Origin: Bolinopsis microptera
Taxonomy: Eukaryota > Ctenophora > Tentaculata > Lobata > Bolinopsidae
Reading direction: 5' to 3'
NCBI RefSeq assembly: GCF_026151205.1
Contig: NC_087081.1
Span: 6,505,246-6,569,245 of the forward strand
Length of the DNA stretch: 64,000 bases
Below the pieces are notes generated by a model. The model saw nothing but the letters and a program-made list of their open reading frames with translations, did no database searches and was not told the DNA's origin. Below are positions 51,316-61,913 of the stretch, piece after piece; position 1 is the stretch's first letter, and every line of letters begins with the position of its first letter. A program made the position numbers and the translations under genes.

Positions 51316-51616
51316 GACAACAGTCCTTACAGCCACAGTCTTCTGCTTGTCTCTCCTACCATATGTTGCTTACCATGTTGGGGAATCCATTGTTAGTGTT
51401 GATGACAAGAGCAAGAGTTCATTCCACACCACGTTCTTTAGAGTTGCACTGTCGCTCCTGTCTTTAAACACCATCAGCAACTTCTACATTTATAGTCTGG
51501 CCGTTTCTAGCTTCAGAGCATTTATCCGGTCAAAGATGCAGCTGTCTTATCAGTACATAACCAACGTGGAAACTTCTACAAGTCATGGTATTCAAATATT
51601 GATATATGAATGATGA
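51315..51616 (+). pseudogene. GPCR 3' fragment B (helices 6 and 7)
   Basis: About 302 bp identical by eye to 52274-52575, encoding helix 6, helix 7 and the tail. An ATG at 51314 gives a 99-codon frame that could be translated, but lacks helices 1-5. It ends directly at the start of the complete receptor, so its stop codons (TGA TGA) overlap that gene's ATG ATG. Confidence 0.9.
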
Positions 51617-52572
51617 CTGCTTATGGCATTAAAAGTGATGCTATAAGATACACTTGGGCCGGATACTATCTATTCGTCATTGCCTCATCTTTAATAGGAG
51701 ACACAACCATTCTCATAGCATCCATAAAGTACAAGGCATTTAAACTTCACCGAGTCATCACTGTCATCATCCAGCACATAGCAGTTTGTGACCTGATTGT
51801 ATCTGCTACCGACGTTCTCCCAAGGATGGTCTCTGTCATCTTTGATAAGTGGGTCCTAGGAAACTTCTTCTGCTACTTGATATCCTATGCAAGTTACTAT
51901 TCCAACGTGACGAGTGTGTTTCTTATCTGTGCCATGACAACCAGCAAGCTGCTCCTCCTGAAATATCCCCTCCAATTTGGAACAACCACTTCGAAGAAAG
52001 CACACTTGATCTGCGTGACATGTTGGTTGGCAGCTTTCACCTTACCTATGACACTCCTTCTCGTAGATAAAGACGATGTTTTCTTTTCAATTCAGGGCTA
52101 TGGATGCGATTATGGTTTCTCCTCGGAGATTTTGCACTATCTGATGCCTTTTATGGCAGTGCTATTTGCATTTATTCCAACATGCCTGGTTGTTTTAACC
52201 ACCGTTTGTTTGCTGATTGAAGCCAGAAAAGTTGTTACCCGGAGCAGAGAAAGTTTGAAGTGGCAGGGGATCGTGACAACAGTCCTTACAGCCACAGTCT
52301 TCTGCTTGTCTCTCCTACCATATGTTGCTTACCATGTTGGGGAATCCATTGTTAGTGTTGATGACAAGAGCAAGAGTTCATTCCACACCACGTTCTTTAG
52401 AGTTGCACTGTCGCTCCTGTCTTTAAACACCATCAGCAACTTCTACATTTATAGTCTGGCCGTTTCTAGCTTCAGAGCATTTATCCGGTCAAAGATGCAG
52501 CTGTCTTATCAGTACATAACCAACGTGGAAACTTCTACAAGTCATGGTATTCAAATATTGATATATGAATGA
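51610..52572 (+). CDS. class A (rhodopsin-like) GPCR, orphan
   Basis: 320 codons, uninterrupted. Seven hydrophobic helices at about residues 16-38, 49-73, 85-117, 131-152, 176-203, 219-243 and 262-284. Class A marks include Asp61 in helix 2 (IAVCDLIVS), Cys88 (helix 3) and Cys166 (loop 2) for the disulfide, Trp139 in helix 4, Pro190 in helix 5, and FCLSLLPY (Pro237) in helix 6. The DRY motif is replaced by TSK (111-113). NPxxY reads NFYIY (277-281), and helix 1 has Asp31 in place of the usual Asn. It would be a plasma-membrane receptor; the ligand is unknown. Only about 15 residues precede helix 1. The ATG ATG lies at the junction with fragment B. A spliced form ending at 52798 is likely. Confidence 0.88.
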   Translation: MMTAYGIKSDAIRYTWAGYYLFVIASSLIGDTTILIASIKYKAFKLHRVITVIIQHIAVCDLIVSATDVLPRMVSVIFDKWVLGNFFCYLISYASYYSNVTSVFLICAMTTSKLLLLKYPLQFGTTTSKKAHLICVTCWLAAFTLPMTLLLVDKDDVFFSIQGYGCDYGFSSEILHYLMPFMAVLFAFIPTCLVVLTTVCLLIEARKVVTRSRESLKWQGIVTTVLTATVFCLSLLPYVAYHVGESIVSVDDKSKSSFHTTFFRVALSLLSLNTISNFYIYSLAVSSFRAFIRSKMQLSYQYITNVETSTSHGIQILIYE

Positions 52573-54610: not shown

Positions 54611-54708
54611 TTAGCTGTAGTGGTTGTTGTAGTGGTTGCTAGAGTTAAACCCAGCATTTTCTTCGTCCACTGCCATAAAGGTAGTCTCCACCATCTCGTG
54701 TTGTCCAT
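54611..54708 (-). CDS. K2P terminal exon
   Basis: Acceptor TTAATTTTCAG; enters in phase 1 after GAA A. Encodes NGQHEMVETTFMAVDEENAG and a tail ending NNHYS before TAA at 54611-54613. Its first 35 bases and acceptor are repeated twice more upstream. Confidence 0.85.
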
Positions 54709-57700
54709 CTGAAAATTAACATCATGATAAACTGATCATTCCTTTACTCATAAAGGTAGTCTCCACCATCTCGTGTTGTCCATCTGAAAATTAACATCAT
54801 GATAAACTGATCATTCCTTAACTCATAAAGGTAGTCTCCACCATCTCGTGTTGTCCATCTGAAAATTAACATCATGATAAACTGATCATTCCTTTACTCG
54901 GTGGTTGTGCAACTTATCCAAGTTATATTAGTAGCATTGCAGTACCCAGGTAGGATTAACTAAGCTTTAGATTAGTAGAGATTAGTAGCATTGCAGTACC
55001 CAGGTAGGATTAACTAAGCTTTAGATTAGTAGAGATTAGTAGCATTGCAGTACCCAGGTAGGATTAACTAAGCTTTAGATTAGTAGAGATTAGTAGCATT
55101 GCAGTACCCAGGTAGGATTAACTAAGCTTTAGATTAGTAGAGATTAGTAGCATTGCAGTACCCAGGTAGGATTAACTAAGCTTTAGATTAGTAGAGATTA
55201 GTAGCATTGCAGTACCCAGGTAGGATTAACTAAGCTTTAGATTTATTCACTGATTTTCGAACATATTAGTTTAAAGGGATAATACTTGAAACTTTGCTTA
55301 AAGTTCTTATATTATTATAAATAGGCAAATAGGTACAATCCTGACCGGCTGTTACGGTAACAGCCCTCTAACAGCCCTCTAACAGTCACTTATAATAACT
55401 ATGATTAATACCCCGACCTAATTAAGCCCAACTCACGAGTTTCATTTTGTTCAATCACGAGTTTTTCCTTATTTTCACTAATTAATTTCCCTCACTATTT
55501 TCACTAATTGAGGAGACCATTAGTGAGCATGATCGGCTGAGCTGGGGAAACATTTCAACTATATCCTATATTTTCCTGACCACTTATAAGTAGCAACATG
55601 TCTCCAATTTTGTCCACGACCCTACGTTCCCAACAAAAACTCGCATTAAACCTTTCACGATTTGCTGGTACTATCTTACTATTGCACTCTAACTGGCAGC
55701 TGATGAGGTTCTAAATGTTTTCTGGCATCGTTACTTGGAGTTGATGAAACTTTGAATATATTCTGACATGGTAAATTCCAGTTAATTGAGTTCCGAGTAG
55801 AATCTAAGTATGTGCTTGAGACTTTGTAGTTGGGCGTTGGCACCGCTACTCAATTTGAAGTCTGCAAAGTTTTTAAGGAGTTAAGGCTTTCTCCTATCAT
55901 TACTTGAAGCTGATGAAACTTTGCATATATTCTGGCATACTAATTCGAGGTTTTTAATTGAACTCTGAGTTTTATATCATCTTCTGAGTACCTAGAATGT
56001 TACAACTTTGTACGTGACCGGTCAAAGTTCTAATACTGTTAAGGTGTTATTGCCGTACCAGCACACGATGATCTATACTCCTTTTTGTCGTACAATTATG
56101 ATAACTATCACTTTATCAGGGTATTTAGTTGAGAAGAATTGGAAAGATCATGTGATTTTACTGATTCCAGATTACGAGCACAGGTGATTGGAATAAGTCT
56201 TAGAGCACAAAAAGTTTGATAAACTCACTCTCAAGTGACCTCCCCCTCCTCCCCCTCCCCCTCCTCCCCCAACAAGGTATCTTAAAAACCACTTACTTTC
56301 CATGTCATCATCTTTAGTGAGGAGGTCTGTTTGTCCGTCTCCGTTGTTGGTATTATTGGTGTGTCTCATCAACTTGTTTGCTCCGTCCATCACGACCTCC
56401 TGGGCTTTCGAGGTCAGTTTCCTTCCTTTTGCTTTCAGCATCCTAAGAGAGTTAAAAACGTCCAAAAAAACAAACTTAAAGTTGGCGTTACTTTTTTTAT
56501 AAAATTCAATCGGAAAATCATATGTCTTGCTTTATAAAATTCAATTAGAAAGTCAAATCGAAAGGTCAATCAGAATTTCGATATCATGTCCGCCACGAAT
56601 TATCGGTGCACTGTAAGAAGGATATCTACAATGTATTAAAGTATTAATATTGTACACAATATGTCAATATTATTAATATTGTCTGAAGTTACCTGGTATG
56701 AGCTGCAGATACAGACCGGATAGCATTGAACACTGAGGTCACTAACGTCAGACCTGTGGAGAACGGTATTATTGGAAACGCTGAAAATCAGCGGAGTGCT
56801 GCACACAAAAACGTAAAATCAAATGCTGTGAGCTGTCAACCAATAAATACGTATTGCCGCAAAAGGGGGACGAGGCAAAACACAGAGGAGAAACAAAACA
56901 AGAAAAAAGAAGAAACAAAACAAAAACCCACCAATACAAAAGACGAACAAGACCCGGATAAGAACGAGGTGGTTAGCCTCCGTCATGGAAATGTCACCCA
57001 GTCCCACCGTGGTCAGGGTGATGACGTAGAAGTACATGCACTTTACGAAGGAGTCAGTTGGGTTACTATTGTTCAATATCTGAGGAGGAATTAATTTTTT
57101 AAAGGAAACAAAATAGAATATTATACAAAATAGTTTTACAATCACAATGCTGGCAAGCATAACCGTTGCCCTTATATTCACAATACTATTTACCCCCTAT
57201 ACTATTATATCCCCTTTATTGTTTTCCAGGCATTAAGACTCATCGAAAGTAGTTCAGCAGGTATATTTAAGTTCAAAACATTCTAATTCAATGTAAAAAT
57301 GACATGAATAAGAAATAGTTATGTGGAGGTTTTTAAGAAATTTGCGCAAAATACGCGCCAGCATGTTATACGAAATTAGGTAAAAAAACCAAAATCGCCA
57401 TATTCAGGTGCCTTAAAAACCATGTTAAAATTGAGTTAGAGATCTGAAACTTTGCAGGGCGTCTAGAACTTGTCCAAATCGACTGTAAAAAAATGTCATG
57501 TTTCAGGAGTATCGGGAAATGGGTTTTCTGGAACCCCTGTTTTACAACAGATTGTCGTGAAGCATATATATATATGTATAGACGCTTTTGGCAGTCAATT
57601 GTAGCCTACATTTAAGTATCCGTAGATTCAAAAGTATAAAAGATACAGTCATTTCGAACCACAGGTTTTAAAGATAATTGTTTATACTTTAGTTTACATT

Positions 57701-60069
57701 ATATCGAAAAATAATTTAACGTCATCATCATCACTTGATGACGTCATCAATTTAAGTGTTTTTAAAACTTGATTTTTGACAAAATAACAACTTTTCAAAT
57801 CGATTTTTCACCATTAAAAAGTAATTTTATTCAAAATCTGAGGACATTTTCAACTTAGATAATTGTTCAAGCATTCTGAAAATCTACCGGAAAATTTTCC
57901 TACCTTGCTCCTTCATAAAGATATTTGCTATTGAAGTTAGTGCTTTTTTGAAGAATAATTTTTTTAAAACACAAACGTTGTGAATTAGTATTCTCTGATG
58001 TCGGGCCATCTCTTGGGTTGTGGAGCTCAATTTTGCTTCCTTAAGGTATAAATTGTGTAATAGGCTAGTTTTAAAGTTGAAAATCGAAAAGTTGCACACG
58101 TGAGGACACGCCCAAATTGATTTAAAATTGCTAAAATCACTGAAAATTGTTATTTTCACGATTTTTATCAACTTTGGAGTCCCGTTGTGATTAAAGTTCT
58201 TTTTTGAAATCTTCTGAAACTTTGCATGCTTATTAAACTATATATTAAATACCACTATGCAAAAATTTACGGTGATTCAATATTGTATGCGCACGCAACG
58301 TCCGCTCAAAGTTTGCACGTGCGGAAGGTGAGAATTTTGCTCATTCGTGATTTCGAATATATTCTGCTTTCCCACGATATTTAAATGGCATTATTTATGA
58401 ATTAAATGCCAACTTGAATGAGTAAAAAGTGCCATATTCAGTCTGTTATCGACAGATATACCTACCTAAACACAAGGAAATGTTTTCAAAGGTAAAATTT
58501 CGAAATCGTTAAAATTACCTCCTTATTAATGAAGTTTCGACTGTGTAAATTATCCTGACATTATAATCAAAAAGAGATGATATTTGACCAAAACCCATAA
58601 TCATGGGTAGAGTGAACCGCTGCCAGTGTCTCTCTTTTCCAAACAAAAGGAAATGATATTAATTTGAGGAACCGTCCGCAAATGCAAATTGATACCGAGA
58701 ATGAAATCGCTCGCTCGCTTTTACGAATTGTAATAAAGCTTATTGAATGGGAAAAGCGAGCGACCGATTTCATTCTCGGTATCAATTTGCATTTGCGGAC
58801 GGTTCCTCAAATTAATATCATTTCCTTTTGTTTGGAAAAGAGAGACACTGGCAGCGGTTCACTCTACCCATGATTATGGGTTTTGGTCAAATTAACATAA
58901 TAGAAATAATCTCATCTGAAAACGAGCAAACAGTCCATAGGACTGAAAAAATAATTAATTTTCTTTCAATTCGAAAGAATTAAACTCGAAATTATCCAAG
59001 TTGGGTTGATTAAATTTGATTATTCTGATTTAATAATTTCAATTTAATTATTATAATTTAACCATTATGATTTAATCATTATAATTTGACTACTCTAATT
59101 AATCATTCTAATCTGATTTGTTCAACTTACCGCAGACCACATACAAATGAATACAATGAGAGCAAGCAGGAGAACGAAAAGAGAGAACACTCTCGTCGTC
59201 ATATCTCGCAACTGAAATTAGGTATAAGTTAACTTCAATGGTTACAACAAAGGTTCTAATCTTATATAAATAAAACATTTTTTTTACTGAACTATGTACA
59301 TAGTATGGGTTGACTTATTCTTATTTAGCAGTGCAAATTTTGGAATTTGGCCGCCAAATTTTTTTAAAGGCCTAACTCAAAATTCTGTCCCAAAACTTAA
59401 GGTCATGAGACAATTCTACGTTGATTCTGAAAATTTCATGAAAAAAATATTGAAACCCTATTGAGTTCTATTGTTTTGAGCAAAGTCAGTTTTGCAAATA
59501 TCGCGAACTGAGATATGGGCAATTTTGCTCATTTTTTGCGATTATTTGAACACAGAATCCACAGTTAGGTAGATATTGAGCTGATAATCATAGAGAATGT
59601 GTAGTATAGGCTTACCTTCTATATAAAGCTGGTTTCATTCAAAAATATTGATATTTGACCAATTTATGGGCCAAAATCGATCAAATTTGGTGCGTATTCC
59701 CAAATATGGGCATATGGTTTTTATCCCATAACTCGGCCAATTTTTATCCAATTTTGATAAAACTTAATGTGTGTGTTCAGAAGACTAGTAGCTACAAGTA
59801 GAGCATCCCAAAGCATGGTTTTGGGCATGTTGAGGGTATTTGGCTAAATTGGGGCCAATTTGGACCGAATATGGGCGTGGCTGCCCCGCGGGCACTGTTT
59901 GGCTGTTGGGGTCCGGGACCCCCCCAAAATTTCGGTCACCGGTCCTAGTTTGTTGGTCAACTGGTATCTCGAAACCAAGTTTCACAAAAAAATCAGGGTG
60001 AACCCCCCCCCCCCCCCCCCTTAATACCCACAGTTTATATTCACTTGAATTATTGGGTACAATAATATG

Positions 60070-60118
<49 letters not shown>

Positions 60119-60135
60119 AAGCGAAAGTGAAAATG

Positions 60136-60172
<37 letters not shown>

Positions 60173-61913
60173 AACATTACTTACCTCAAACTGTCTGTTC
60201 ACTTTAGACATTATGGTGGAGAATAAGTTGATACTGGCACTGAGAAAGGCAACTATTCCCTTAGAGAAGAGTGCTAGGTACATCGCCATTATGGGGATAC
60301 CTGCAGAATTGAGTAAAAGTTAAAAGAGCAGTGGAAGTGAAAGATAAAAGTTACTAAGGCTATCTTTAAGCGAAACTTAAATTTTCGTGCTTTATAACCG
60401 TGAGCTTTAAGTTTTAACCGTGCCTTTATTTCGACTATTGAGCAACCCTTGAGTGTATAATTGATAGATAACCAAGGTGCCGAGTTTCAGTTAATGACCA
60501 AATTTGGTGATCTTACACCTGCGAGTCTTACTCCTTAGAGAGTCTTACACCTGAGAAATTCTTACACCTGAGTCTCATGCTAGACTTACCGACAACAGAA
60601 TAACAAAGTGTGAACCACTTCCCGGCATGAGTTCGTGGTGACATGCTGCCGTAACCTGAGTAAATCTTGTAAGTAAACGTTTTAAAAGTATTGATTTTTT
60701 AGAATTGCTGGGTTGACAGTATGTCGAAACAGATAAGGGAGTTTATCTGTCAGAAAACGAGAAAAACCTTGATTAAACTGTAATTTAGCTTATGACAAGA
60801 GATATTGGCAGAAATTACAGCGAAATTTTGACATTCAGTCATTTTTTAAGGGGAAGATTAGAGTTGGCGTTGTTTTTTATAACTATCCCTTGTCTAGAAA
60901 TTAATTAAAATGACTAAAAGAACGAAAAACCTTACCTATAGTGGTTAAAACAGTGGCACAGAAGTCTAAAGAGCTCCAAAAGTTCCACAGGTTCTTTTGC
61001 GTATTAACGTTGTCGAGCTTGAAGCACCGCGTTCCATGCAAACCTTTTAACTCCGCCCATCTATCTTCATCCCAGGCTGAAGATATTAAGAATTAGAATC
61101 AGAAATTATTTAAACATTCGTGGATATGGATACAGGTGGGAGGGTGAACCATGCTTGTTTTGAAACGTGACAGCGATTCTGGATTTTAGTTTGTCAATGA
61201 TGGTTAATCGCTTTTTAGTGTAAGAAATGATTAAGCTCACCACCCGACAGTACCCAGAAACAAAACAATGATAGACCCTCTCAAACTTTCTACATTCTAA
61301 GCAAAAAAGGGGCTTTAATTTAAAAAACGAAAAAAAGGGGGCTTCATTAGTAACTTACGTGTCATTCCTGGAAGATGAGGAATCCCATCTTCATCGTTAG
61401 GGTCGTGGGTTTTATTAAGGAAATATTTAAAGTCACCTTGAAGTCCCAGGTATTTGCCGATCGCTTTTGATCTGGGCATTTGAGAGTTAGTTGTTTTTGA
61501 TTTGATTTTATATTTTGTTTCCTTACACTCATACTTTGATAAAAACGTGAACCAAATTCATAATGACAACTTATCAGCACTGCTCGTCAAGCAGTTTTTT
61601 TACATCCATAGAATATAACTGATGATAAATAACAATAACTAATATATTAACTAATATATATATAATATATCGATAACTATATAACTAATATTAAATGATT
61701 TGATATTAGTTACCTATACAGTAAGAATAAATAAAATATATCTGAAACCACTCACCGATACTTCTCATTATTTTCGATAGACACAAATGCGAAAGCGCAG
61801 CCCGTTAAGAAGATTAAGTTGATGATAAGTAAGACGAAGGAGTTTAAAAGTGCTTTCTTTCCTTTGGCTGTTACTTTTCCGAAGAACCCAAAAATGGGGG
61901 GCATTCCCCGACT
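54611..61913 (-). CDS. two-pore-domain (K2P) potassium channel gene, ten exons
   Basis: Exons in order: 61756-61913, 61359-61471, 60936-61076, 60590-60655, 60185-60300, 59131-59211, 56932-57079, 56693-56780, 56297-56442, 54611-54708. All junctions are GT-AG with matching phase and give 384 residues, counted from the first M1-exon codon. M1 is 25-47, followed by a cap with sequon NKT (72). P1 filter is TTIGYG (135-140), M2 150-171, M3 206-225, P2 filter TTVGLGD (248-254) and M4 263-290; then a cytosolic tail. K2P channels dimerise and carry background potassium current at the plasma membrane. Leu in the second filter resembles TWIK-type P2; subfamily is otherwise open. The start codon must lie upstream, probably in the exon at 63316-63996. 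Introns hold tandem repeats and a long inverted repeat. Confidence 0.93.
54674..54898 (-). repeat. 75-bp tandem triplication of the terminal exon's 3' splice site
   Basis: Three copies start at 54674, 54749 and 54824 on the plus strand. Each contains the first 35 bases of the terminal exon, its acceptor (TTAATTTTCAG on the minus strand) and 40 bases of intron. Copies differ by one base (CCTTTACT or CCTTAACT). All three acceptors are identical and would join exon 56297-56442 in the same phase. Confidence 0.95.
54930..55245. repeat. 54-bp minisatellite in the last K2P intron, six copies
   Basis: Unit AGTAGCATTGCAGTACCCAG plus GTAGGATTAACTAAGCTTTA plus GATTAGTAGAGATT. On the transcribed minus strand each unit has CTACTAATCTCTACTAATC, i.e. 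two branch-point-like TACTAAT motifs. The array lies just upstream of the triplicated acceptors. Confidence 0.95.
55246..56296. other. K2P intron, low-complexity and decayed repeats
   Basis: Imperfect repeats around 55690-55990 share GTTGATGAAACTTTGAATAT and CTGGCAT. A C-rich tract lies at 56238-56269. Confidence 0.5.
56297..56442 (-). CDS. K2P cytosolic-tail exon
   Basis: Acceptor CTCTCTTAG, donor GAAA|GTAAGT. Encodes MLKAKGRKLTSKAQEVVMDG and an Asn/Thr/Asp-rich stretch ending LLTKDDDME. Phase 2 in, phase 1 out. Confidence 0.88.
56693..56780 (-). CDS. K2P M4 C-terminal half exon
   Basis: Acceptor GATTTTCAG, donor CCAG|GTAACT. Encodes AFPIIPFSTGLTLVTSVFNA and IRSVSAAHT, completing M4. Phase 1 in, phase 2 out. 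Confidence 0.88.
56932..57079 (-). CDS. K2P second pore (P2) and start of M4 exon
   Basis: Acceptor CCTCCTCAG, donor ATTG|GTGGGT. Encodes SFVKCMYFYVITLTTVGLGD, the second pore helix and selectivity filter, and LVLIRVLFVFCI of M4. Reading through the donor into the intron gives a spurious Phe-rich extension. Confidence 0.93.
57080..59130. other. K2P intron with a long inverted repeat
   Basis: The largest intron of the assembled gene. It holds the 141-bp inverted repeat at 58582-58892 and the frame at 57884-58171, for which I have no support. Confidence 0.6.
58582..58892. repeat. near-perfect inverted repeat (141-bp arms, 29-bp loop)
   Basis: Left arm 58582-58722 and right arm 58752-58892 are reverse complements with one mismatch found by eye (CGCTCGCTCG versus CGGTCGCTCG). 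The loop is about ACGAATTGTAATAAAGC plus 12 bases. Lying in a K2P intron, it would fold into a long double-stranded stem in the pre-mRNA. Mirrored ORFs in the arms are a by-product. Confidence 0.95.
59131..59211 (-). CDS. K2P M3 exon
   Basis: Acceptor TAATTTCAG, donor TGCG|GTAAGT; phase 0 on both sides. Encodes LRDMTTRVFSLFVLLLALIV and FICMWSA, the third transmembrane helix. Confidence 0.9.
60001..60174. repeat. poly(C) tract and (GTGAAA)n microsatellite in a K2P intron
   Basis: C-run at about 60005-60020; about 19 GTGAAA hexamers at 60068-60174. On the transcribed strand the array is (TTTCAC)n and begins about 10 bases after a K2P donor site. Confidence 0.95.
60185..60300 (-). CDS. K2P M2 C-terminal half exon
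   Basis: Acceptor TTCTGCAG (as CTGCAG|GT), donor TGAG|GTAAGT. Encodes IPIMAMYLALFSKGIVAFLS and further to NRQFE. GIP after the M2 start is typical of K2P channels. Phase 1 in, phase 0 out. Confidence 0.92.
60590..60655 (-). CDS. K2P exon from filter 1 into M2
   Basis: Acceptor TTTACTCAG, donor GTCG|GTAAGT. Encodes YGSMSPRTHAGKWFTLCYSV plus V. The intron splits the filter Gly codon of TTIG|YG, an intron position often seen in K2P genes. Phase 1 in, phase 1 out. Confidence 0.93.
60936..61076 (-). CDS. K2P cap and first pore (P1) exon
   Basis: Acceptor AATATCTTCAG, donor ATAG|GTAAGG. Encodes WDEDRWAELKGLHGTRCFKL, then NLWNFWSSLDFCATVLTTIG, the first pore helix. The Cys in the cap could form the inter-subunit disulfide known for several K2P channels. 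Confidence 0.93.
61359..61471 (-). CDS. K2P extracellular cap exon
   Basis: Acceptor AAATGCCCAG, donor ACAC|GTAAGT. Encodes SKAIGKYLGLQGDFKYFLNK and THDPNDEDGIPHLPGMT. NKT is a potential N-glycosylation site. Phase 2 in, phase 1 out. The pyrimidine tract is weak, so the exact 5' edge is the least certain of the set. Confidence 0.78.
61756..61913 (-). CDS. K2P M1 exon
   Basis: Acceptor with branch-like TCTAAC and TTTATTTTCAG; donor ATCG|GTGAGT. Encodes SRGMPPIFGFFGKVTAKGKK, then M1 NSFVLLIINLIFLTGCAFAF ending VSIENNEKY. Phase 0 in, phase 2 out. The strong acceptor argues that translation starts in an upstream exon, rather than at the ATG at 61943 within the acceptor tract. Confidence 0.92.

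Follow-up and report, generated by a model that had tools for sequence, protein, structure and literature searches.

On the minus strand of the window (the whole 64-kb stretch of DNA analysed, with a GC content of 0.387) lies a gene for a K2P channel, as an earlier note on this DNA had proposed: the joined exons match KCNK10 over query residues 21-212 (phmmer, E 5e-18), and at E up to 0.001 the joined fragment matched 67 distinct chains, from KCNK10 and other K2P structures. The upstream exons were modelled within 56693..61904, on the minus strand (61904-61756, 61076-60936, 60655-60590, 60300-60185, 59211-59131, 57079-56932 and 56753-56693), the coding part between 61756 and 61076 being left out. 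They are followed by a penultimate exon at 56297..56442, minus strand, which encodes the start of the cytoplasmic tail (MLKAKGRK...KDDDME) and ends at the donor AAA|GTAAGT. Both K2P filters, TIGYG and TVGLGD, are found in the joined upstream exons, which thus hold two pore loops. The Pfam scan, run on single open stretches and not on the joined protein, identified Ion_trans_2 (PF07885) in the stretch with the second pore (56819-57196; 35.2 bits, cut-off 22.5) and no family at E 0.001 in that with the first pore (60901-61092), scanned alone. Shortly downstream of one K2P splice donor there is a hexamer array (TGAAAG, 17.8 copies, 60068-60174), and at about 58600-58890, in a K2P intron, an apparent long inverted repeat, with the same open stretch, TAASVSLFQTKGNDINLRNRPQMQIDTENEI, read from both strands. 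No title among the literature matches listed dealt with ctenophore K2P channels.

The interval in which the K2P gene can end is bounded by a gene on the opposite strand that ends at about 52600, a single-exon rhodopsin-type GPCR (51610-52572, plus strand, PF00001). The 3' end of this GPCR gene occurs twice on the plus strand (about 51317-51613 and 52276-52572), 959 bases apart and with the same last ~98 residues, the extra one lying upstream. Within the interval, the letters of the minus strand from 54898 to 54674 read as three head-to-tail copies of a 75-bp unit with one base differing, and TRF, run on the window, reports the same array (54674-54899, period 75, 3.0 copies, 98%). With its head-to-tail copies and a unit within roughly 10-100 bp, this array has the form of a minisatellite. 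Each unit joins 40 bases from the end of the predicted intron (...TTAATTTTCAG) to 35 bases from the start of the predicted exon (ATGGACAACACGAGATGGTGGAGACTACCTTTATG). Copy 1, the closest to the donor, occupies 54824..54898, copy 2 54749..54823 and copy 3 54674..54748, all on the minus strand; the sole substitution is at the start of copy 2, which reads AGTTAAGG where copies 1 and 3 read AGTAAAGG. A 29-base probe spanning the acceptor, allowed up to three mismatches, found three places, all perfect, while 100 shuffled sequences averaged 0.00, and a 321-base block searched against the species' own 264.65-Mb genome gave one place, among the best candidates scored. The letters, TRF and the probe all bear out the claim that the acceptor and the first 35 exon bases are tripled in 75-bp tandem units, with the coordinates correctly placed (first exon bases 54858, 54783 and 54708; donor exon 56442-56297), and the triplication over the predicted splice acceptor is confirmed as real.

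Joined to the three predicted acceptors in turn, the exon 56442-56297 reads into three different stops. From 54858, in copy 1, the product is NGQHEMVETTFM-S, with the stop ending at 54818; from 54783, in copy 2, it is NGQHEMVETTFM-SKGMISLS, with the stop ending at 54722; and from 54708, in copy 3, it is NGQHEMVETTFM-AVDEENAGFNSSNHYNNHYS. These tails have the sequences that the earlier note had listed, except that the long one runs for 20 residues after ...TTFM, and not for 19. The 40 bases upstream are common to all three acceptors, and so is the phase; the note was right about the latter, and we rejected it as independent support because an acceptor that is copied carries its phase along automatically. 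Copy 3 is most simply the ancestral exon, since it alone continues into unique sequence, and we predict that the stretch from 54708 (54611..54708, minus strand, running to a stop) is the original terminal coding exon of the K2P gene. This prediction draws on coding score and not on homology: an 80-residue tail query found no paralogous tail in the own genome at E up to 10, its two matches being the gene itself.

Acceptor-like sequence stands at each of the three sites. Each scores 6.3 on a matrix in which 28 modelled acceptors span 2.5-12.63, four of the 28 falling below 6.3. The matrices comprise 28 acceptors and 28 donors, from 21 introns modelled in four myosin loci and from seven K2P introns, and they lean toward consensus, the training introns having been placed by a generic consensus; one of the 21 myosin introns (CCA|GTAGAG) is probably misplaced, and the donor TTG|GTGGGT of the exon ending at 56932 was left out of the scoring. 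On the minus strand of the window, 169 of 3494 AGs score as high as the three acceptors. Between 56260 and 52600, 19 of 209 score at least 5, the three of the array included, and nine others exceed 6.3, six of them opening a tail of at least 10 residues. Because high-scoring AGs are this numerous, signals alone do not establish the terminal exon.

The coding score, whose training set of 2311 codons took in the other K2P exons, covered 15 of the 19 AG candidates (55699, 55536, 54614 and 52967 were left out). The top sum among these 15 candidate last exons belongs to the one from 54708 (4.43; 0.138 per codon), and the 12 scored candidates outside the array gave 11 negative sums and one of 0.53. 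The per-codon level of the 54708 exon was matched by 5.7% of 3000 random open stretches, and its mean of 0.138 lies below the 95th percentile (0.174) of this null, whose random pieces may contain exons. The score is modest, and it favours the 54708 exon a little.

Tandem arrays are common in this DNA: once overlaps are merged, the TRF count is 49 for the 64-kb window and 81 for a sample made up of 15 pieces of 10 kb each (150 kb). When only those with a period of 30-200, at least 2.5 copies and at least 95% match are counted, the window has six, the 75-bp array included, against two in the 150 kb, and it is therefore rich in young minisatellites. By period times copy number, the two qualifying arrays of the sample take up about 2.4 kb of its 150 kb. 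At such a density one would expect a splice site in one place or another of the genome to be covered by an array, although two arrays are a thin basis for this rate. A separate minisatellite with a different unit lies in the same K2P intron (54927..55243, minus strand; 54 bp x 5.9, 100% match by TRF), this perfect 54-bp array being 28 bases upstream of the 75-bp one.

We lean towards a recent tandem duplication that gave rise to a three-copy minisatellite over the final K2P acceptor, with the ancestral tail retained and shorter tails leaking through as noise. The ancestral gene would have had one acceptor and the 20-residue tail, because only copy 3 continues into sequence that is both unique and coding-like. 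The duplicated unit would have taken 40 bases from the end of the final K2P intron and 35 from the start of the final exon, and the duplication would later have been extended to three copies as a minisatellite; since the three 75-bp copies show one difference, they are young or homogenised. The spliceosome could in principle use any of the three acceptors, and the gene would then make the ancestral tail and perhaps, as splicing noise, one or two shorter tails. The acceptor at 54708 would be expected to matter most, with some leakage to the other two. Copy number is probably variable between individuals, and no sign of selection for three copies was seen. The acceptor score of 6.3, within the modelled range, and the best summed coding score of 15 both speak for this account, as do the frequency of tandem arrays and the second, perfect one nearby in the intron; against it, few of the modelled acceptors score lower, other high-scoring AGs are numerous in the interval, the coding score is modest and the tail has no homology support.

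Alternatively, the array could be wholly intronic or past the coding part, and the true last exon could lie elsewhere between 56297 and about 52600, which we consider improbable but take seriously. Since K2P tails show little conservation, they give no anchor for choosing the last exon; the own genome offers no related tail even at E up to 10, and the 19 AGs scoring at least 5 in the interval include better ones than those of the array, for example 55541 at 8.97. The coding score points the other way: the 54708 exon has the best sum of the 15 out of 19 candidates scored, while outside the array 11 of 12 sums are negative and the remaining one is 0.53.

If the minisatellite does cover the final acceptor, as we prefer to think, an acceptor array of variable copy number might act as a genetic dial, each extra copy putting another short-tailed isoform before the ancestral tail, so that individuals would differ in tail composition and the junction donors would be the raw material of new introns; this extension we regard as doubtful. 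A shade less probable again is the interpretation of the earlier note, in which regulated competition among the three acceptors would tune the tail of the channel, and with the tail its trafficking or partners. The anatomy that it describes is there, namely identical acceptors, one phase and three distinct stops, and a transcript whose early stop lies in the last exon can escape decay. However, the copies are too similar to show selection, and their near-identity, with the abundance of tandem arrays, favours a recent accident. Duplicated globin 3' sites were unequally used in one study, as far as the extract drawn on here goes (PMC5389562), and by analogy equal competition among the three acceptors cannot be assumed. 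On balance, the K2P array probably arose by accident, as a young minisatellite from which leaky isoforms may come, and its regulated use is a proposal.

A nascent intron at the copy junctions is highly unlikely. Here TTTATGA|GTAAAG would serve as a donor, and the copies would become 36-nt frame-keeping exons that add 12-residue repeats (NGQHEMVETTFM). Both junctions do read TTTATGA|GT in the letters, the 36-nt stretch is open as well as symmetric, and the excerpted report on a potato RdRp gene describes an event of this kind that has RNA support (PMC4974935). Provided that the predicted boundary is real, the duplication also spans a boundary with its acceptor; what the new copy lacks is a usable donor and a usable intron length. 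The donor-like GTAAAG of the copy 2/3 junction (54742..54747, minus strand), which would bound the symmetric exon and a 39-nt intron, scores 2.08, and the GTTAAG of the copy 1/2 junction (54817..54822, minus strand, position counted from the letters) about 0, against at least 3.88 in 27 of the 28 modelled donors. The would-be intron of 39 nt compares with about 98 for the shortest of 38 estimated introns, an estimate that under-counts short introns because those read through inside one match are uncounted. The combination of a 36-nt exon and a 39-nt intron was accordingly ranked low on donor score and length, though GTAAAG is in phase, and the 114-nt version, from copy 1 to copy 3, has a worse donor.

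The intron lengths come from 62 of 73 myosin matches (73 is a lower bound, and 11 rows were left out), with pairs limited to 4 kb and to profile gaps between -20 and 12. Among the omitted rows, C3:9154255 lies 59 bases after its tandem twin exon and, if that stretch is spliced, would be preceded by an intron shorter than the ~98 minimum. These tandem myosin-head exons (C3:9154012-9154485; L017:2812-3285) align to one and the same region of the profile (105-167 and 102-167) and, by the letters, are separated by 59 bases; the pair has the look of mutually exclusive exons, between which the spacer would be too short for splicing.

That the triplication is an assembly artefact can for practical purposes be dismissed, because an array of 225 bp is short relative to long reads (if the assembly is a long-read one), copy 2 carries its own substitution, and the genome search reports one place, among the best candidates scored.

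If the gene is transcribed as predicted, the array would provide a clean natural test of which acceptor the spliceosome picks when a single intron offers several that are identical and evenly spaced, and would show how tandem duplication over an intron-exon boundary alters proteins; if it is not transcribed so, the array adds a further minisatellite to a genome where tandem arrays are numerous. A narrow search of a partial literature, by titles and the starts of abstracts, returned no matching case of repeats with acceptors, and no first is claimed. Reed and Maniatis reportedly worked with duplicated beta-globin 3' splice site constructs in 1986. In the portion of a report that describes such constructs (PMC5389562), the likeness lies in the identical tandem 3' splice sites, with part of the exon placed behind the proximal one, and the difference is that the constructs are an engineered pair, whereas the K2P gene has a natural triple.

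Two natural cases come closer. In IFI6, a minisatellite supplies multiple splice donors (Turri 1995, cited in PMC4526556), and, as the citing passage has it, a single splice site is thus multiplied within the gene by the repeat units, and several mRNAs result. The K2P array likewise multiplies one splice site, from which several mRNAs would follow, and is in form the acceptor counterpart of the IFI6 donors, with the difference that transcripts are reported for IFI6 and the K2P acceptors are predicted. In the potato RdRp gene PGSC0003DMG402000361, according to the sections of the report used here (PMC4974935), duplication of a boundary led to a new intron, with RNA-seq proof, in two copies that differ at ten nucleotides. 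There too the duplicated stretch reaches from the 3' end of an intron, across its acceptor, into the 5' end of the exon that follows, and there too a GTAA-type donor-like site is brought into play. In contrast to the potato gene, the K2P array has three copies with one difference, a weak donor and a would-be intron of 39 nt, and it is known from DNA alone; moreover, the exon that it enters is a predicted terminal one, and what would differ between products is therefore the tail. As far as these partial sources extend, the boundary duplication of the potato RdRp gene and the minisatellite of donors in IFI6 are the nearest precedents for the K2P array.
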